Source: Polyangiaceae bacterium
GTDB taxonomy: Bacteria > Myxococcota_A > Polyangia > Polyangiales > Polyangiaceae
DNA length: 64,000 bases
Reading direction: 5' to 3'
NCBI GenBank assembly: GCA_947475525.1
Contig: CANJMI010000009.1
Coordinates: 62,001-126,000, forward strand
The translations under genes were made by a program, and so were the position numbers. The notes below the pieces were generated by a model, which searched no databases, was not told the origin of the DNA, and saw only the letters and a list, made by a program, of their open reading frames with translations. Every line of letters begins with the position of its first letter. The stretch's first letter is position 1. This document shows positions 45,725-55,583 of the stretch, in pieces.

Positions 45725-45845
45725 GGGATGAGTGCCTCACGGAGGGTCTAGCAGCGTCCCGCCGTTGGGGAAAGGCGAGAGCCGGCCTCGGTGTCCACCT
45801 CCAGACGTGCCGGCGCCGCCCGTGGGGCTTTACGACGCCCGCCGA

Positions 45846-46982
45846 ATGGCCCAACTTTCGAGCGTGGCCATCATTCCGCTCGTCTGTTTGCACACGCGAG
45901 ACGCGGCGGTGGCCGTCGACGCGGCGGTGGCGCGGGTGGCGGCGTCGCAACACTTCATTCTCGGCGAGGAAGTACAGGCAATCGAAGGCGCGCTCGCGGC
46001 TCGGTTCGGGGTGGCGGCGGCGGTGGGGGTCGCGAGCGGCAGTGACGCCCTCTACCTCGGGCTCCGTGCGGCGGGCTGCGGCCCTGGTGATGAGGTTATC
46101 ACGACCGCGCTGTCCTTTTTCGCGACAGCAGGTGCGATTGCCCGCACCGGCGCCGTGCCGGTATTCGTCGACATCGAGCGCGACGGTTTCGGCCTCGACC
46201 CCGCGGCCGTGCTGTCCGCGATCTCGTCTCGGACTCGCGCTGTAGTTGCCGTGCACCTGTTCGGTCGTTGTGCCCGCATCGAGCCGTTGGTCGAGCTCGC
46301 CGCGCGTCGCGGTCTCACGCTCGTCGAGGATGCGGCGCAGGCGATCGATGCGACGCGTGGGGGCCGCGTGGCGGGCTCGTTCGGCGACTTTGGCTGTCTT
46401 TCGTTTCATCCGACGAAGAACCTCGGCGCCTGGGGTGACGGCGGCATGGTTCTCTGCAAGACGCTCGAGTCCGCGCGCGCGGTAGCTCGGCTGCGCCAAC
46501 ATGGGGGCAAGGACGGCGTGTACGATGTGGTCGGAATCAACAGCCGCCTCGATGCACTTCAAGCCGCGATTCTCGGCGCGAAATTGCCCCATCTCGCGGG
46601 CTGGAATGCGGCGCGCCGCGAGCGAGCTGTCCACTACCGCGCGCTCTTCGATGCGGCACGGCTCGCGACTCACGTGACCGTGCCAGGGGCCGACCCCGAC
46701 GGCGTCGAGGTCGTCCATCACTTTGTCATCCGCTGTCGCCGGCGTGACGAGCTTCGCGTGCACCTCGAGGCGCGCGGTATCGGCGTAGGCGTGTACTACC
46801 CGACGCCGCTCCACCTGCAGCCGTGTTTCGCCGCGCTCGGCGGTAAGGTTGGCGACTGCCCCGAGGCCGAGGCGGCCGCGCGTGAGTTGCTCAGCTTGCC
46901 GATGTTCCCAGCGCTGTCGATGGATCAGCAACGTCGCGTCGTCTCGGAAATTGGCGCGTTTTATCGAGGCGCCTCGGCGTGA
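45846..46982 (+). CDS. wbpE: DegT/DnrJ/EryC1 sugar aminotransferase (WbpE-like)
   Basis: The 378-residue PLP enzyme has VASGSDALYLGLRAAGCGPGD near residue 60, the EDAAQAIDA motif, and the PLP-lysine motif SFHPTKNLGAWGDGGMV. In the WbpB-WbpE-WbpD route it transaminates a 3-keto UDP-N-acetylglucosaminuronate. ATG 45846 is used because upstream in-frame codons are not typical. The following genes (wbpD-like acetyltransferase and wbpB-like oxidoreductase) overlap one another by 4 bases, and this gene's stop overlaps the acetyltransferase start, so the three are a coupled pathway. Confidence 0.9.
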   Translation: MAQLSSVAIIPLVCLHTRDAAVAVDAAVARVAASQHFILGEEVQAIEGALAARFGVAAAVGVASGSDALYLGLRAAGCGPGDEVITTALSFFATAGAIARTGAVPVFVDIERDGFGLDPAAVLSAISSRTRAVVAVHLFGRCARIEPLVELAARRGLTLVEDAAQAIDATRGGRVAGSFGDFGCLSFHPTKNLGAWGDGGMVLCKTLESARAVARLRQHGGKDGVYDVVGINSRLDALQAAILGAKLPHLAGWNAARRERAVHYRALFDAARLATHVTVPGADPDGVEVVHHFVIRCRRRDELRVHLEARGIGVGVYYPTPLHLQPCFAALGGKVGDCPEAEAAARELLSLPMFPALSMDQQRRVVSEIGAFYRGASA

Positions 46983-47554
46983 TCGCTGACTCCGCCTCGG
47001 TCCACCCATCGGCCGTTTGCGACGAGGGCTGCCGCATCGGTGCGCACACGCGCGTCTGGCACTTCGTTCACGTCGCGGCGGGTGCCAGCATCGGCTCGGG
47101 CTGCGTGCTCGGTCAGGGAGTGTATGTCGCTCCGACGGCTCGCGTCGGCGATGGAGTGCGCCTTCAAAATAACGTCAGCGTCTACGATGGCGTAACGCTC
47201 GAAGATGACGTTTTTTGCGGTCCATCCGCCGTGTTCACGAACGTCGCGCGCCCGCGTGCGCACGTGTCGCGCAAGGACGCCTTCGAGCCTACCCTCGTCG
47301 GGCGCGGAGCGACGCTCGGCGCGAACTGCACCATCGTTTGCGGCGTCACGATCGGCCGCTTCGCGTTCGTCGCCGCGGGCGCCGTGGTGACCCGCGACGT
47401 TGCCAACTTCGCTCGGGTGATGGGCGTTCCCGCGCGCCAGGTCGGTTGGGTGTGCGCGTGCGGCGAGGCGCTGGCGTCAGGCGATGCTCCCGAATGTTCG
47501 GTGTGCGGCCTGCGCTACGTCGAGCGCGACGGCGCCATCACGGAGGCAACGTGA
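46979..47554 (+). CDS. wbpD: Left-handed beta-helix sugar N-acetyltransferase (WbpD/WlbB-like) with C-terminal zinc knuckle
   Basis: The 191-residue protein consists of hexapeptide repeats (residues about 4-155: RIGAHTRVWHFVHVAAGASI, then the GVTIGRFAFVAAGAVVTRDV block). This is the WbpD/WlbB family that acetylates the 3-amino group of the UDP-sugar uronate. The last 35 residues have four cysteines (159, 161, 173, 176) in a CxC...CxxC layout that looks like a zinc knuckle. The GTG start overlaps the wbpE stop, and its own stop overlaps the next gene's GTG start. Confidence 0.9.
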   Translation: MIADSASVHPSAVCDEGCRIGAHTRVWHFVHVAAGASIGSGCVLGQGVYVAPTARVGDGVRLQNNVSVYDGVTLEDDVFCGPSAVFTNVARPRAHVSRKDAFEPTLVGRGATLGANCTIVCGVTIGRFAFVAAGAVVTRDVANFARVMGVPARQVGWVCACGEALASGDAPECSVCGLRYVERDGAITEAT

Positions 47555-48597
47555 CGCTGCGGATGGCCGTGCTCGGCGCGGGGCGTTGGGGCAAAACTCT
47601 TGTGCGCGCCCTTGGGTCGGTGGCTGGAGCCGAGGTCGCACGGGTGGTCGATCCCTCCGACGAAGCACGCCATTGGGCGTCGGCACTTGGTCTACGCACA
47701 TCGCCCGAAGCTCGGGCGGCCTTCGAGGACCCCGCCATCGACGCGGTCGTCATTGCGGCTCCCGGCGAGCTGCATGCGCCTCTCACGGTAGCGGCCCTCG
47801 GTGCGGGCAAACACGTGTTCGTCGAGAAGCCGCTGTGCCGCTCGCTCGAGGAGGGGGCTCGCATCCGCGCCGCGCTCCTGGCGTCGGACCGCGTGCTCAT
47901 GGTCGGACACCTGATGCTCTACCACCCTGCGGTCGATAAGCTCCGCGAACTCGTGCGGTCTGGCGAGCTCGGCGCGTTGCGCTACCTCACCGCGACTCGT
48001 GTGAATCTCGGCACCGTGCGCACCCACGAGAACTCATGGTGGAGCCTCGCCCCTCACGACGTGGCGATGATCCTTGCGCTCACGCAGACGCTTCCCGTGC
48101 GCGTCTCGGCTCGGGGCGCCGCCTACCTCAACCCGAGCGTCGAGGACGTGGTCTTTGCGCACCTCGAGTTTCCCGGCGGCGTCTTTGCGGCGATTCACGT
48201 CTCGTGGCTCGAGCCCTGCAAACGTCGCGAACTCACCGTCGTCGGAGCGCGCCGAATGGCCACCTTCGATGACATGCAGCCGTCCGAAAAAGTGCGCGTA
48301 TTCGATGTCGGACCCGAACCGACGGGCGAGTTTGGCAGCTTTGCCGAGCTCGTCGCGCTACGTCACGGCGACATCACGATCCCGCGCGTATCGCATGCGG
48401 AACCGCTCAAAGTCGAGCTCACCACGTTCGTCGCGTCGGCGCTTGCAGCGTCGAGTTCACGTTCGGTTGGTGCGCCTTCGTTCGACGCCTCATCGCTGAG
48501 TGGCATCGACCAAGGGCTCGACGTCGTCCGCGTGCTCGAGGCGGGGCAACGTTCGCTTGAGTCAGGCGGCGCGGCCGTTGCGTTAGGCGAGGCGTGA
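47551..48597 (+). CDS. wbpB: Gfo/Idh/MocA-family UDP-sugar oxidoreductase (WbpB-like)
   Basis: The 348-residue protein has the Rossmann start MAVLGAGRWGKTLVRALGS and the family motif KHVFVEKPLCRSLEEG, followed by the catalytic EKP/H layout (APHDVAMILAL). WbpB oxidises UDP-N-acetylglucosaminuronate at C3, making the substrate of WbpE. The start is GTG 47551, fused to the upstream stop by GTGA. The three genes lack the first-step 6-dehydrogenase (WbpA) and a 2-epimerase (WbpI), which must be elsewhere or replaced. No glycosyltransferase is in this window. Confidence 0.88.
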   Translation: MTLRMAVLGAGRWGKTLVRALGSVAGAEVARVVDPSDEARHWASALGLRTSPEARAAFEDPAIDAVVIAAPGELHAPLTVAALGAGKHVFVEKPLCRSLEEGARIRAALLASDRVLMVGHLMLYHPAVDKLRELVRSGELGALRYLTATRVNLGTVRTHENSWWSLAPHDVAMILALTQTLPVRVSARGAAYLNPSVEDVVFAHLEFPGGVFAAIHVSWLEPCKRRELTVVGARRMATFDDMQPSEKVRVFDVGPEPTGEFGSFAELVALRHGDITIPRVSHAEPLKVELTTFVASALAASSSRSVGAPSFDASSLSGIDQGLDVVRVLEAGQRSLESGGAAVALGEA

Positions 48598-48617: not shown

Positions 48618-49160
48618 TCACATGCCGGTCAGGATGAGGAACGTCTCGCCCGACGGAATGAGCTCGAGGCGGTTTTCCTCGACGGTGCTCTTCCATTTCT
48701 CGCCCTCTTTGGTCGCGAGACGGTAGCTGCCGCTGTAGGTGTAGTCGACGAGCACCCGATCGCAATTTTGCTGCTGATCGACGCACGGTTTGCTGTCGAG
48801 GGTGATGCGTCGGTAGCGCATCTCGTAGCGGATGTTGTTCGCGGTCTCGTACTTCTGGGTGAGGTAGGCGCGGAGCCCGGCGTAGTCGACGTCGTCACTC
48901 GCGTCGGCGTTCGGCCCTTCCTCGTAGTAGCCGGGGGCCGCGAGTCCGAGCAACGTGGCGACGTCCTTGCGCTCGACCGCCTTGCGATAGGCCTCGCAGA
49001 ACGACACCACGCTGCGGTGCGGAGCGTTGTCTTCGACGTCGGTGTTGGGGATGTAGTGCACCGCGCAGCCCGAGGAGGCGAGGGCGCTCCCGAGAAGGAG
49101 GGCCGGCGCGAGCACGGCGCGAATCCGGGTCTCGAGTGCTGCGGGCATCAGTGTGTTCAT
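48618..49160 (-). CDS. Small lipoprotein with a possible NTF2/SnoaL-like fold
   Basis: The 180-residue product has a signal peptide with lipobox (LASSGC). A helical segment, VVSFCEAYRKAVERKDVATL, leads into a beta-rich part with YEMRYRRITLDSK and VDYTYSGSYRLATKEGEKW, which resembles an NTF2-like cone fold without clear catalytic residues. Its stop is 21 bases from the convergent wbpB stop. The patatin gene ends 62 bases upstream of its start in the same direction. A second lipoprotein of similar layout lies on the other side of the patatin gene. Confidence 0.68.
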   Translation of the reverse strand: MNTLMPAALETRIRAVLAPALLLGSALASSGCAVHYIPNTDVEDNAPHRSVVSFCEAYRKAVERKDVATLLGLAAPGYYEEGPNADASDDVDYAGLRAYLTQKYETANNIRYEMRYRRITLDSKPCVDQQQNCDRVLVDYTYSGSYRLATKEGEKWKSTVEENRLELIPSGETFLILTGM

Positions 49161-49222
49161 CGACCGGCAACCCGGATAGCCGAGTCGCCATTCCGCGAGA
49201 ACCGCAAAAGCGTGCGGCAGCA

Positions 49223-50185
49223 CTAGCCGACGCTTCGGAGTCCCCCGCGGAGTGCGGCAGGAGTGAGCCCGGGGCTCGATTCGAGGTTGGGTAAGATCCG
49301 ATCGAATACGCGATTTTCCTTCGCGCTCGCGAGTGCGCGCAGGGCGGTTCCGTAGCCGCGCAGCACCACCGGTCGCGCGGAAAAGGTGTTGAAGTAACCG
49401 TACGGACCGAGGTCTGGCGCGATGTCGATGAACGTGACGTCGGGATACCGATGCCGGAGAACCTCGACCCCGCGGCTCTCTTTTTCGGTGAGCAAGGTGC
49501 TGAGCGATTGGCGCAGCACGCGGTGGATGCCGCGCTGTGCAAGCGAGCGCTTCGAGCCGCGGTCCCGCTGCGGCCGATAGATGTTCGAGATGATCACCAC
49601 GTTGGCGCCTGCTTCGACGGCGAGGTCGGCCGAGAGAGTGCGCGCGACTTCTCCGTCCACGTAGTAGCGCCCGCCGATTTGGATTGGGCGGAAGAGTCCC
49701 GGAACACAACAGCTCGCCGCGACAGCTTCGCTCACCGGGACGTGCTCATTTACGCCCGGTCCGAAGACTGTGCGCTCGCCTGAGTCGATGTCGACGGCGG
49801 TGACGTACACGGGCTTCGGGAACTGCCTAAAATCGTTGATTGGCAGATGCTGCCGCAAATACGCTTCGAGTTTCCGGATCGAGAACACTCCGGAGGCGAG
49901 GTGCCCGGGATCGAGCAACTCTTCCGCCGTCGGAGCTCCGAGAAACGTCGACATATGGAGGCGTGGGCCTTGGTGGCGGCGTCGCCACGGCAGCCGATAA
50001 CCATCGATCAGCACGTCGAGCGGGATATCCTGCCCGTACATCGCTCCGACGATGGCCCCGGCGCTCGTGCCGACGAACATTTCGGGAATGAGCCCCAGCT
50101 CCTCGCAGGCCTTGAGCACTCCAAGGTGGGCGAGTCCACGTGCTGCCCCCCCGGATGCGACGAACGCGATCTTGACCGGCGACAT
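49223..50185 (-). CDS. Patatin-like phospholipase
   Basis: The 320-residue protein has the oxyanion motif ASGGAARGLAHLGVL, the nucleophile elbow FVGTSAGAIVGAMYG with the catalytic Ser, and the catalytic Asp in GGRYYVDGEVARTL. It lacks a signal peptide and membrane spans, so it probably acts inside the cell or in the periplasm on membrane lipids. Starting at ATG 50185 gives MSPVKIAFVASGG, the usual beginning for bacterial patatins of this size. A very good -35/-10 pair lies 7 bases ahead of the ATG. Confidence 0.9.
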   Translation of the reverse strand: MSPVKIAFVASGGAARGLAHLGVLKACEELGLIPEMFVGTSAGAIVGAMYGQDIPLDVLIDGYRLPWRRRHQGPRLHMSTFLGAPTAEELLDPGHLASGVFSIRKLEAYLRQHLPINDFRQFPKPVYVTAVDIDSGERTVFGPGVNEHVPVSEAVAASCCVPGLFRPIQIGGRYYVDGEVARTLSADLAVEAGANVVIISNIYRPQRDRGSKRSLAQRGIHRVLRQSLSTLLTEKESRGVEVLRHRYPDVTFIDIAPDLGPYGYFNTFSARPVVLRGYGTALRALASAKENRVFDRILPNLESSPGLTPAALRGGLRSVG

Positions 50186-50302: not shown

Positions 50303-50956
50303 TCACTGCGGCACGTCTTCCGCGATGCGGTAGATGACGTAGCGGTCCTCGTCGCGCCGGAGCCAAAACGTCAGCGATTCGCCAAAAATTCGGTCGGCTT
50401 TCGTCGGTTGTCCGAGCATCCTCACGCGCAGGACCACGTCCTCTGGTGCGAGCGTCTCGCCGCTCGAGGCAAGCGTGAGCTCGACAGGCAGGGCGTCGGC
50501 GTGTTCGGTATCGAACGTCTCGATTTCTGACTCGCGGTAGAGGGCTCCGCGGTCGACGGCTTCGTAGCGGAATTTCGCGAATCGCTGGCGCCACAGGAAT
50601 CCGTAATTGTGGACGCTCTCCAGGCTGCCGCCACGCATGTTACTGACCATGGCCGTCGGCGAAGCGACCGCGCTAAGGGCGGCGAGATCCTCGTGTGTGA
50701 CGCCCTCGAAGAATCCTTGCAGCGTGACTCGCGCCGCCTCGAAGCCAAGCGGAGTTCGCAGGGTGACGATGCCGTTCTCGACGGGGGCGCGACTCTGCGG
50801 CCCGGGCGGTTGGCTCGTCGGATCGATCGCGACGCCGTCGGGACGTCGCGCAGCGTGCGACAGCTTGCCCGCCGTTGCGAAGGGTGTCGCGACGCGCGGC
50901 ACGCAACCGGCCCACACCACGCACGCAAGAATGCATGCTCGCTGCGCTCGTCGCAT
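50303..50956 (-). CDS. Lipoprotein, possibly NTF2-like
   Basis: The 217-residue protein has a signal with lipobox VWAGC (start ATG 50956). A Pro-rich linker leads to a domain beginning TPLGFEAARVTLQGFFEGVT with HEDLAALSAVAS, an RYEAVDRGALYRESEIETF strand pair and a C-terminal RDEDRYVIYRIAEDVPQ. It may be an NTF2-like or similar ligand-binding fold. It sits between the patatin gene and the GATase-like gene, all in the same direction. I found no catalytic motif. Confidence 0.66.
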   Translation of the reverse strand: MRRAQRACILACVVWAGCVPRVATPFATAGKLSHAARRPDGVAIDPTSQPPGPQSRAPVENGIVTLRTPLGFEAARVTLQGFFEGVTHEDLAALSAVASPTAMVSNMRGGSLESVHNYGFLWRQRFAKFRYEAVDRGALYRESEIETFDTEHADALPVELTLASSGETLAPEDVVLRVRMLGQPTKADRIFGESLTFWLRRDEDRYVIYRIAEDVPQ

Positions 50957-50996
50957 CCAAAAAGGGGAGGCGCGGTCGCCGAAAACTCGGCTGCGT

Positions 50997-51839
50997 TCAG
51001 CGGTGCGGTGGGGCTTCGAGCGGGGCATCGGTGCGCGAGAGGGCGAGCATCGCTCCGTCCGCGAGCGCGGTCCACCCTTCCGGTATCGCGTCGTTTTCGA
51101 AGTCGGAGGCGACGACAGCGAGGCGACACGCTTCGAGGTCCGGCATGCGCACCTTCCCAGGATCCTCACCCGCGAAGAGCGGCTCCAGACCTTGCCGCCC
51201 GGAAAGAACGCGGTACGCCATGGGGGTACCGAAGCGCGCGGCGACGAGGCCCTCGGGACTCGCGACCATCACGTTGATGCGGCTCTCGCTCAGTGAGGCC
51301 TCCCTCGCGAGCCGACGCACGAGGTCGATCGTAGCGGCGAGGGCGGCGAAGATGGCGCGCGGCTTCACGTCGGGATCGTCGAGCTTGCCGGCATCGTGGA
51401 GGAACGACAAAAACAGGTGAAAGAGTAACTCTCCGTCGGTGTCGCCGCGCAGTCCGCGTCGCAAAAACTCGGGGACGGACTCGAGCATCCGCGCGCGCAC
51501 GTCACCGAAGCCGGTGATCGTGCCGGTCTCGGCGAAAAGGAACTGCTGGTAACGAAAGGGGTGCGTGTTGTCCGTAGAGCGCGCGCCGATTGTCGCCCGT
51601 CGCACGTGGGCAAGCAAAAGATCACTCGTCACGTCACCGAGCATGTCACCGAGATCGAGCTCGCGGCGATCTTCGACCGGGCGGCGTCGCAGGAGAAACT
51701 CGCCGTGCTGCTGGAAGCCGACACCCCAGCCCCACGGCGCACCCTCGGGGTTTGCGGCGGCGAGCACAAGGCGTTCACGCAGAGCAAAACGCCGAGTGAG
51801 ATCGGGGCGGTTGGCGAGGATTCCGATGAGGCGCGCCAT
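50997..51839 (-). CDS. Class II glutamine amidotransferase-like protein without the nucleophilic Cys
   Basis: The 280-residue protein has the layout of YafJ/EgtC-type class II amidotransferases: a start resembling MCRLLGI, then GWGVGF, AHVRRATIGARSTDNTHPF and the DTDGELLFHLFL segment. The N-terminal nucleophile Cys2 is replaced by Ala (MARLIGIL), and the asparagine of the oxyanion motif HNG reads AETG. Both changes should abolish glutamine hydrolysis. The ATG at 51839 has a good ribosome site (AGGAG, 9 bases upstream), so the absence of Cys2 is not a start-site error unless an exon-like fusion is assumed. A non-hydrolytic role in binding or regulation is inferred. Confidence 0.85.
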   Translation of the reverse strand: MARLIGILANRPDLTRRFALRERLVLAAANPEGAPWGWGVGFQQHGEFLLRRRPVEDRRELDLGDMLGDVTSDLLLAHVRRATIGARSTDNTHPFRYQQFLFAETGTITGFGDVRARMLESVPEFLRRGLRGDTDGELLFHLFLSFLHDAGKLDDPDVKPRAIFAALAATIDLVRRLAREASLSESRINVMVASPEGLVAARFGTPMAYRVLSGRQGLEPLFAGEDPGKVRMPDLEACRLAVVASDFENDAIPEGWTALADGAMLALSRTDAPLEAPPHR

Positions 51840-51892: not shown

Positions 51893-53230
51893 TCAAGGCG
51901 AGAGACGGTTCAACATCCGCGGGAATGGAATCGTCTCGCGGACGTGGCTCAAGCCACACATCCATGCGACCATGCGCTCGAGTCCGAGGCCGAAGCCGCC
52001 GTGCGGAAAGCCGCCGAACTTGCGGATGTCGCGGTACCACTCGAAGGCTTCCATCGGAAGTGCATGCTTCGCGATTGCGGCGTCGAGTACGGCCAGGTTC
52101 TCTTCGCGCTGCCCGCCACCGATGATTTCGCCGAAGCCTTCGGGGGCGATCACGTCGACGCCAAGGGCGAGGCGCGGGTCGTTTGGGTCGCGCTTCATGT
52201 AGAACGCCTTCACTTCTTCAGGCCAACGGTGGACCATCACGGGCCGGTCGAAACGCTTGGCAAGCAGCGTCTCGTCCTCGGCGCCGAAGTCGCCTCCCCA
52301 TTCGAGAGGGGGCGCATCCGTGGCGGTCTCGAGCTTCGCGCGTTCTTCAGCAACGATGGCGACAGCCTCGGTGTACGTGACGCGAGGAAACGGTTTCTGA
52401 ATCTTCTCGAGCGCGGCGACGTCACGCTCGAGCTCGGTGAGTTCAGGGCGGCGCCTTTCGAGCACGCGCTGCGCGATGTGGCAGATGAAGTCCTCGGCAA
52501 GGTCCATCACGCCTTCGAGGTCGGTGAACGCGACTTCCGGTTCGACCATCCAAAATTCCGCGAGGTGGCGGCGCGTCTTGCTCTTCTCAGCGCGGAACGT
52601 CGGCCCGAAACAGTAGACCTTGCCGAAGGCGGCTGCGGCAGCCTCCATGTAGAGCTGGCCCGACTGGGTCAGGTAGGCCGGCTGCCCGTGATAATCCGTC
52701 TCGAATAAGGTGCTCGTGCCCTCGCACGCGCTCGGCGTGAAGATCGGCGCATCGATCAGCGTGAAGTCGCGGGTGTCGAAAAACTCCCGGATCGCGCTCA
52801 CGATGGTGTGCCGTACGCGCATGATGGCGTGCTGGCGTTTGCTGCGGAGCCACAGGTGGCGGTGGTCCATCAGAAAGTCCGGGCCGTGCTCCTTCTTGGT
52901 GATCGGGTAGGGGTCGGTCGGTGCGGCGATGAGCTCGAAGCCCGTCGCCTGCAGTTCGAATACGCCTTCGCGTTTTGGGTGCGCGACGACCTTGCCGCGC
53001 ACGCGTAGAGAAGCCTCCTGCTGAAGCGCTTCTGCTCCCGCGAACGTCTCATCGCCCACTTCGGCTTTCGCCATCACGCACTGGACGAGGCCGCCACCGT
53101 CACGGACTTCGAGAAAATGCAGCTTTCCGCTGGACCGCTTGTTGTAGAGCCAGCCCTGAAGGGTCACCTCTTTGCCGACGTGGTCCGCGAGCTTTGGGAT
53201 CGAGACCACGGAGGGGGTTTCGCTAGCCAT
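51893..53230 (-). CDS. asnS: Asparaginyl-tRNA synthetase
   Basis: The 445-residue class IIb enzyme has the N-terminal OB-fold ([19 protein letters not shown]), motif 1 ([17 protein letters not shown]), motif 2 ([20 protein letters not shown]), the GGGQREENL segment typical of AsnRS and AspRS, and motif 3 ([16 protein letters not shown]). The strong resemblance to AsnRS in the [11 protein letters not shown] motif supports Asn over Asp. ATG 53230 gives [14 protein letters not shown]. The next gene in the same direction, the GATase-like one, begins 53 bases later. Confidence 0.95.
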
Positions 53231-53269
53231 GCTTGCGCCCTTACCACAGGGACGGCTACGACGTGAGTC

Positions 53270-53951: not shown

Positions 53952-55583
53952 ATGAAAATCGCCTGCGGCTCTTGCGCCGCGAAGTACACGGTTTCGGATG
54001 ACAAAATCCAAGGGAAGGCCGTCAAGGTCAAGTGTCGCAAATGCGGCGCTGTGATCGTGGTCTCCCCTAACGGAGAGGTCACCACGCAAGGCGGCACGCC
54101 TCCTGCTCCGCTCGTGACCTACACCGTTAGCGTCACCGATACCGACCAACGCTCGATGGCGATCGCGGATGTTATTGCTGCCTACAACGATGGCACGATC
54201 GACGCCGAGACGTTCGTCTGGACGGAAGGCATGGGCGATTGGGCGCCGTTGAAGGATGTCGATGCGCTCGTCGACGCGCTGCACGAGGCGGCCCAAGGCA
54301 GCCCGGCAGCCCCGGCCGAAGTCGCGCCGCCGAATGATCTCGGCCAGACGATGGCGATGCCCGACGGCGGCCTTCCGGATTACGACGCCGCGCTGGCGGC
54401 ACAACGCGACGGCGGTTCTCCGGCTGTTGCTTCCCCGGCGGCGGGCTATCCGGCGGCGGGCTATCCGGCTGTTGCTTCTCCGGCGGCGGGCTATCCGGCT
54501 GTTGCTTCTCCGGCGGCGGTCTATCCGGCGGCGGGCTATCCGGCTGTTGCTTCTCCGGCGGCGGGCTATCCGGCGGCGGGCTATCCGGCTGCTCCCGCGC
54601 CAGCGTACGCACCTCCAGCGGAAGACGAACTGAATTCGACCGTTGCGATGGACGGCTCGGCCGCCGTCAAGTTGTTTGGCGGTGCCGCGATGCCGGCCCC
54701 GCGACCCGCGATAGCCCTCGCTCCGACGGCGACCGGGTTTGGAGCCCCGGGCGGCAGCATGTTCGGTGGCGGCGGCGGAGGCATGTTTGCCAACGTGTCG
54801 AGCGGCGCCACTGCGCCGAACTTCGGGGGCGATTCATCGTCCCGGGGGGATGACGGCAACTCCGCAATTTTCTCGCTCAATACCCTGACTGCCAACGCGG
54901 CCGGTGTGCCGGTCAGGCCCAAGTCTTTCGATCAGGAAGACTCGGGCTTGATCGATCTCAAGGCGCTTGCGTCCGGGTTCGGTGGCGGAGCGGACGTCCC
55001 CGCGGCTACGGCGATGTCCGGCGACGGCGGCTTGTTTCCTCTCGCGGGCCTGCAGCCGCTCGCGCCTCCGGTCGCGATGGCCATGGCGGCGCCCGTGATC
55101 GTCGAGGTCGCGAAGCCTTCGAACAAGGGTGTGATGGGCGCGCTTGCCGCGGCCGTTGTCCTGTTGCTCGGGGCTGTCATCTTTCTCGCGGTGCGCGGCT
55201 CTTCGACCCCGACGCAAGAGGTCGCTGGTTCGTCGTCGAGTGCTCCATCGCAGGCCGCAATTGCCGCGAAACCCGCAGATACTTCGACCAGCGCGTCGCC
55301 GGCCGCTGCAGCCACCACGGCGCCTTCGGCGGAGGTGGCTGTCGCCGCGGCACCCTCCGCGACGAGCGAGGCCGCCGTCGCCTCAACTCCTGTAGCCGCG
55401 CAATATGGAGGCCCAGCGGCAGCTCGACCTGTGGCCCCACCGCCTCCCGCTGCCGGCGCTGGTGCTGGTGCGACTCCCGCTGGCGCTGGCGCCACCAAGC
55501 CTCCTCCGCCGAAGTCGAACTCCGGTGGGTGCGCGCCTGATGACTTGATGTGTCTCATGCGCGCCGGTGCGAAGAAGCGCTGA
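53952..55583 (+). CDS. Zinc-ribbon/GYF-domain membrane protein (GltJ/AgmX-like)
   Basis: The 543-residue protein starts with a zinc ribbon with Cys5, Cys8, Cys28 and Cys31 (ACGSC and CRKCG), a myxobacterial cytoplasmic module. A GYF_2-like domain follows (about 55-108, with SMAIADVIAAYNDGTID and WTEGMGDWAPL). Residues 156-213 are Pro/Ala/Tyr repeats, then a low-complexity region. A membrane helix at about 394-416 leads to an Ala/Pro-rich periplasmic tail ending in a Cys pair. This is the order in M. xanthus GltJ (AgmX), where the ribbon and GYF modules bind MglA and other motility proteins. No TonB-like C-terminal domain is seen here, and no other glt genes are nearby. ATG 53952. Confidence 0.82.
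   Translation: MKIACGSCAAKYTVSDDKIQGKAVKVKCRKCGAVIVVSPNGEVTTQGGTPPAPLVTYTVSVTDTDQRSMAIADVIAAYNDGTIDAETFVWTEGMGDWAPLKDVDALVDALHEAAQGSPAAPAEVAPPNDLGQTMAMPDGGLPDYDAALAAQRDGGSPAVASPAAGYPAAGYPAVASPAAGYPAVASPAAVYPAAGYPAVASPAAGYPAAGYPAAPAPAYAPPAEDELNSTVAMDGSAAVKLFGGAAMPAPRPAIALAPTATGFGAPGGSMFGGGGGGMFANVSSGATAPNFGGDSSSRGDDGNSAIFSLNTLTANAAGVPVRPKSFDQEDSGLIDLKALASGFGGGADVPAATAMSGDGGLFPLAGLQPLAPPVAMAMAAPVIVEVAKPSNKGVMGALAAAVVLLLGAVIFLAVRGSSTPTQEVAGSSSSAPSQAAIAAKPADTSTSASPAAAATTAPSAEVAVAAAPSATSEAAVASTPVAAQYGGPAAARPVAPPPPAAGAGAGATPAGAGATKPPPPKSNSGGCAPDDLMCLMRAGAKKR
54417..54590 (+). repeat. Imperfect tandem coding repeats
   Basis: About 174 bp of repeats built from GGC-TAT-CCG-GCG-GCG and GGC-TAT-CCG-GCT-GTT-GCT-TCT-type units encode the SPAAGYPAVA-like stretch of the zinc-ribbon/GYF protein. 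Their near-identity suggests recent expansion. Confidence 0.9.

Follow-up and report, generated by a model that had tools for sequence, protein, structure and literature searches.

Cys-less paralogues of class II glutamine amidotransferases are already known, and the nearest precedent is crenarchaeal PurF', a Cys-less class II clade in which Ala or Val replaces the nucleophile and whose genomes also encode a Cys-bearing paralogue (PMC3261824). PurF' is a relative of PurF encoded in purine gene clusters (PMC3261824), whereas the protein reported here, encoded in a 64,000-nucleotide stretch of a Polyangiaceae genome (the window), is a single-domain PF13230 protein of Myxococcota, bacteria of soil and water, and its gene lies beside that of a putative lipoprotein. 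EgtC (TIGR03442; 4zfj, 4zfk and 4zfl) has the same single-domain Ntn fold and was the best NCBIfam match of the window protein, but it has a Cys nucleophile, and EgtC membership was rejected because the window protein scored 53.3 bits against a cut-off of 218.65. No ergothioneine genes were recognised by eye among the conserved neighbours. YafJ, of PF13230 (GATase_4; 3mdn, 1te5), shares family and fold with the window protein. YafJ starts MCELLG, however, and the Cys-bearing paralogues have Cys2 and HNG, neither of which characterises the window clade.

Beta-lactam synthetase and carbapenam synthetase keep the class II fold without glutaminase use, the dead domain being fused to a synthetase domain. 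Both were fold matches of the window protein (Z 11.2 and 8.8), which, unlike them, is a standalone, unfused domain. Searches of the open-access literature for such cases found no description of a standalone, clade-wide Cys-less PF13230 protein paired with a lipoprotein.

The window protein and its fold

The host genome measures 5.15 Mb, and its named relatives are Polyangia, for example Sorangium cellulosum, Polyangium, Minicystis and Labilithrix. The features of the locus are collected in Table 1. On translation, the product begins MARLIGILAN and contains HVRRAT, NTHPF, FAETGTITGF and GDTDGE; the HNG motif position is occupied by E104-T105-G106. The replacement of Cys2 by Ala and of HNG by ETG, claimed in the earlier note, was thus borne out. 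The Arg of HVR, the NTHP segment, the oxyanion-loop Gly and the Asp of T-D-G-E are retained; R80 and D135 are presumably, by homology to GlmS, the substrate-clamp positions that hold the amino-acid end of the substrate. An AGGAG sequence lies upstream of the ATG, and no signal peptide is evident in the protein.

Table 1. Features of the locus, in window coordinates
Feature	Coordinates	Strand	Evidence or remarks
Cys-less class II amidotransferase-fold protein, 280 aa	50997..51839	(-)	Translation, Pfam, model, fold matches
Codon 2, Ala where the Cys nucleophile is expected	51834..51836	(-)	Translation
Codon 80, Arg of HVR, kept putative substrate-clamp position	51600..51602	(-)	R 120/130
Codon 105, Thr where the oxyanion Asn of HNG is expected	51525..51527	(-)	N 4/130, T 88/130
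Codon 135, Asp of T-D-[SG]-E, kept putative substrate-clamp position	51435..51437	(-)	D 120/130
Putative NTF2-like lipoprotein gene	50303..51028	(-)	Overlaps by 32 nt the amidotransferase gene, in which its ATG lies; lipobox VWAGC by eye
Asparaginyl-tRNA synthetase, next gene upstream	51893..53233	(-)	Pfam PF00152; context, partly conserved
Patatin-like phospholipase, immediately downstream of the lipoprotein gene	49226..50182	(-)	PF01734, 104 bits; loosely conserved

Pfam placed the protein in GATase_4 (PF13230; 34 bits, cut-off 23) and also matched GATase_6 (32.5, cut-off 27). A second synthase or phosphoribosyltransferase domain of the GlmS or PurF type was not found by Pfam in the 280 residues, which form one domain. 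The AlphaFold model had a mean pLDDT of 95.2, and this, together with the presence of HVRRAT, NTHPF and DTDGE, agreed with the earlier claim that the rest of the fold is kept. Comparison of the model with PDB structures supported a class II Ntn fold, the best match being a class II glutamine amidotransferase domain, 3mdn (Z 23.7, rmsd 2.8, 209 aligned), with EgtC 4zfk (Z 21.4, rmsd 2.8, 211 aligned) and the GlmS glutaminase domain 1xff (Z 21.3, rmsd 2.9, 212 aligned) also matched. A defence-system reading was rejected on the lack of a PADLOC match (E <= 0.01) for either the protein or its lipoprotein partner.

Active-site residues and the order of their loss

One homologue set was retrieved with a pattern (NT[HQ]PFR..) that favours the Cys-less clade, with 80 of 154 matches retained, and frequencies in that set are not a census; two further sets comprise only part of the matches found. 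Residues were counted after removal of 29 duplicates from 192 sequences. From the 135 rows without Cys, 5 that were gapped at position 2 were excluded (three cut at contig starts, two probably partially aligned Cys paralogues), leaving 130. With a profile of 45 homologues, the clade was found in 52/59 relatives at E <= 1e-50. A contig labelled Planctomycetaceae (L078) carries a Sorangium-like Cys-less gene with 51% identity to the query and is probably wrongly binned.

Cys2 occurred in 0/130 distinct Cys-less-clade homologues from Myxococcota with position 2 resolved, where Ala (89), Ser (19), Gly (12), Pro (3), Thr (3), Met (2), Glu (1) and Tyr (1) were found instead. Asn105 was retained in only four of the 130 (L035, L038, L046 and L157), and 88 had Thr there; in the Ser2 members it was also mostly lost. 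Other positions were largely kept: G106 in 128, R80 and D135 in 120 each, and R80, G106 and D135 together in 116 of the 130. In the same alignment, all 28 Cys-bearing paralogues kept Cys, Arg, Thr, Asn, His, Asn, Gly and Asp. The substitution is therefore shared among the homologues, as the earlier note had proposed to check, and the Cys-bearing sequences are separate paralogues. Judged from these alignments, loss of the nucleophile is clade-wide and common to all orthologues examined, and a local accident or sequencing error was rejected for that reason.

The Cys-bearing paralogues fall into more than one type. The source genome also encodes a Cys-bearing GATase_4 paralogue (G000:C12, MCRLFGFRSV..FAHNG), and this MCRLFGFRSV type was present in 22/59 genomes (E <= 1e-90). 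Among 17 further weak matches retrieved, 13 belonged to an MCRLL-type subfamily with Cys and HNG. This second Cys-bearing GATase_4 subfamily (L195-L203 and L205-L208) is mostly MCRLL.. with HNG. The genomes that encode it belong to the same order, and many of them have no MCRLFGFRSV type.

A tree was built from 52 selected rows, with the longest branches omitted, the MCRLL-type subfamily included and E. coli YafJ as root. The Cys-less rows formed one clade with support of 100/98, present also in all 200 bootstrap trees tested, the bootstrap of this tree being reported as not fully settled; the clade was nested inside Cys-bearing diversity. The same split was recovered in a quick tree of 94 rows without the MCRLL-type subfamily (SH-aLRT 89), and with support of 90/69 in a tree of 43 selected rows from which the longest branches were omitted. 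On the 94-row tree, Asn105 changed five times or more. Since a single Cys-less clade lies among Cys-bearing subfamilies, the Cys, on these sequences, was lost once, anciently, at the base of the clade. The four Cys-less members with Asn and the repeated changes at that position likewise place the loss of Asn after that of Cys, and more than once. The two losses had been called parallel in the earlier note, a description that the tree does not bear out. The best explanation is that a glutaminase-dead PF13230 branch was fixed in Myxococcota before the families of the window's order split.

By a simple counting method, dN/dS was 0.041-0.185 in the 30 closest of 214 Cys-less pairs, with the window's own pair (L004/L005) outside those 30, and 0.066-0.400 in 16 pairs of Cys paralogues. 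There were no in-frame stops within the matches listed in the relatives' genomes. Selection on the Cys-less protein is, by this measure, purifying, and the conserved fold and pocket, the loss common to orthologues and the purifying selection together argue that the gene is not decaying; the suggestion of maintained selection in the earlier note was upheld. The protein has lost catalytic residues while its sequence is still constrained, as expected of a pseudoenzyme.

Among the 111 best clade members, seven residues (N10, D13, L49, R53, R96, R98 and R131) were each present in 105-111; at these positions the paralogue mostly has V, S, H, S, Q, G and L. The window protein departs from its clade in having Gln at R98 and Phe at the common W100. 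At the putative clamp pair, both residues were kept in 117 of the 130, both were lost in 7, and R80 alone or D135 alone was lost in 3 each. Among 33 well-conserved columns, D135 was the one most associated with R80, with a p value (1.3e-7) that ignores relatedness; a tree-corrected test of the co-loss had only 3 independent pairs and was underpowered (p 0.5-1). One genome (G019) holds three Cys-less copies, two of which (L055 and L056) lack both R80 and D135; the extra copies appear as if freed from the clamp.

The putative lipoprotein partner and neighbouring genes

A putative lipoprotein gene that the earlier note had missed lies directly downstream of the amidotransferase-fold gene, on the same strand and in a different frame. 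Within the window's family, the two genes in most cases overlap or abut. Its start at 51028 is our choice, and a second ATG is found 40 nt after the upstream stop. This lipoprotein family adjoined 89/131 distinct Cys-less loci with enough downstream DNA, and in 40 of those 89 the upstream gene contained an ATG for it, the commonest position being -26. Four loci were classed as contig ends and 42 as lacking the lipoprotein; the latter include two doubtful partial rows (the second row of L126, and L073), one locus with a diverged homologue seen by eye (L127), and two in which a run-on frame covers the lipoprotein, itself encoded in a different frame (L129 and L132).

In a genome-wide search, the lipoprotein was found in 36/59 relatives' genomes (E < 1e-15), in a single copy each. 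It stood beside the Cys-less gene in 33 of the 36, and at a contig start in the other three (G002, G034 and G020). Weak matches were also seen beside members from other families of the order (L035, L038, L171, L050, L175 and L172), which suggests a pairing that predates the window's family. The lipoprotein was not found at this sensitivity beside deep clade members in other classes.

The partner had no Pfam, NCBIfam or PADLOC match. Its model (mean pLDDT 79.6, with most of the fold region above 90) is predicted to be NTF2-like from Foldseek and VIA-align matches, with Z up to 13.2. In this predicted fold it resembles NTF2/SnoaL-like proteins (best Z 13.2), from which it differs in lacking a Pfam or NCBIfam match and in having a conserved RRPD segment ahead of the fold. 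Many members have VWAGC or similar lipobox-like motifs, as read by eye.

The remaining neighbours (asnS, patatin, PDZ/C2 and SnoaL-like genes) were common but not fixed, and their order was loose and shuffled; 12 of the 112 loci used in neighbour clustering had no callable anchor. The asnS cluster was present in 18 loci, at -1 and on the same strand in 16 of them, and the patatin cluster in 31. No widely shared neighbour gene was found around the deep Cys-less members. Two genes away from the lipoprotein, at 48621-49175 of the window, lies a second NTF2/SnoaL-like gene of lipoprotein type (SnoaL_2 at 17.9 bits, below the cut-off of 27), and a gene family similar to it (cluster 1) occurred near 33 loci.

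Two features lie further off in the window. Genes resembling a DegT aminotransferase, a left-handed beta-helix acetyltransferase and a Gfo/Idh oxidoreductase stand in a row on the plus strand at 45732-48597, as judged by eye, and this trio resembles nucleotide-sugar (O-antigen) pathways. Tandem repeats of 15, 45 and 75 bases at 54395-54591, in the plus-strand ORF 53952-55583, encode a linker of the GYPAAGYPAVASPA type, preceded by a short N-terminus that is rich in Cys and resembles a zinc ribbon.

Possible functions of the Cys-less protein

We favour, at a probability of slightly under 60%, a ligand-binding protein that has lost glutaminase function and is produced along with an envelope lipoprotein, with a ligand and an output that we infer. 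The known glutaminase chemistry cannot work without the Cys, as far as sequence can tell; to that extent the non-enzymatic role claimed in the earlier note stands, and in its wider sense such a role would be an extrapolation. In E. coli PurF, replacement of the Cys by Ala or Ser abolishes glutamine use, according to PMC3261824. By their entry titles, PDB 4zfl holds EgtC C2A with its natural substrate and 3ooj holds GlmS C1A with glutamate, so a Cys-to-Ala pocket of the class II fold can bind a ligand. The pocket of the window protein would likewise still bind a ligand that resembles an amino acid, for example glutamine or a gamma-glutamyl compound, and leave it uncleaved, and the ligand-bound or free state would regulate a partner. 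Such a compound is the obvious candidate, and the new arginines may leave room for a more acidic one. Gene overlap and co-occurrence would make the amidotransferase-fold protein and the lipoprotein one functional unit, in which the cytoplasmic protein would sense and the lipoprotein would act or be controlled at the envelope; the minimal link between the two would be co-regulated synthesis.

Several observations count against a binding protein. The partner is presumably exported, while no signal peptide is evident in the window protein, and how the two would touch is therefore not obvious. The deep members lack the lipoprotein and several of them have lost the clamp, so that the proposed role cannot be universal in the clade, and R80 and D135 could persist for structure alone. 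A more specific proposal, which we regard as speculative and improbable, is a two-part amino-acid sensor. In it, the cytoplasmic nucleophile-less Ntn fold, with Ala2, Thr105, the intact Arg/Asp clamp and the new arginines, would report glutamine, a gamma-glutamyl compound or a cell-wall-type amide metabolite, and the translationally coupled NTF2-like lipoprotein would respond at the envelope.

Inactive paralogues elsewhere stabilise or tune catalytic partners, and the dead protein might similarly be a structural or assembly subunit for a catalytic class II amidotransferase, which it would stabilise or tune allosterically, ligand binding being irrelevant. Many of the same genomes do contain Cys-bearing PF13230 genes, of the MCRLFGFRSV type (22/59) or the MCRLL type (13 of the 17 weak matches). 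The proposal is weakened, however, because a close Cys paralogue was absent (E <= 1e-90) from 32/52 genomes with the Cys-less gene. The Cys-paralogue loci, moreover, had no neighbour gene common to more than 5 of 26 and none had the lipoprotein, and a subunit would not need to retain clamp residues; we consider it unlikely. The new invariant residues, many of them Arg, and the Ser2 found in 19/130 would also fit a changed enzyme with Cys-independent chemistry, for example a transferase, or, where Ser2 is present, an enzyme with that Ser as its N-terminal nucleophile. The Ala2 of 89/130 and the Gly2 of 12/130 cannot be nucleophiles, and the oxyanion Asn is mostly gone even where Ser2 is present, which makes such an enzyme doubtful, in our view, and quite unlikely.

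Decay of a gene on its way out would account for the loss of R80 or D135 in 13/130 and for the 7/59 genomes with no match at E <= 1e-50, two of which hold the lipoprotein at a contig start. Against it stand the absence of stops in the matches listed, the dN/dS (0.04-0.19 among the 30 closest pairs, out of 214), the deep conservation and the fixed partner gene. A pseudogene was rejected on the dN/dS and the open frames, and decay appears very improbable. An annotation artefact, with a hidden upstream start exposing an N-terminal Cys, is an error documented for three archaeal PurF proteins in PMC3261824. The earlier note had named such a start as what would overturn its reading, and none was found upstream of the ATG. 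There was no Cys in the ten in-frame codons (KHERLQESNS) between the upstream stop and the window-gene ATG, which excludes a Cys-exposing start for the window gene. The MARL start of the window protein, in addition, aligned residue for residue with the MCRL of the paralogues, and Cys occurred in alignment columns 1-6 in 0/130 homologues. The chance of an artefact is negligible.

An automatic label of class II glutamine amidotransferase would assign to these proteins a reaction that is impossible by the known mechanism. Standalone class II folds that lack the known catalysis throughout a clade, with the clamp kept, are a natural test of the passage from enzyme to binding protein, and the fixed lipoprotein partner provides a concrete handle on their function in myxobacteria.
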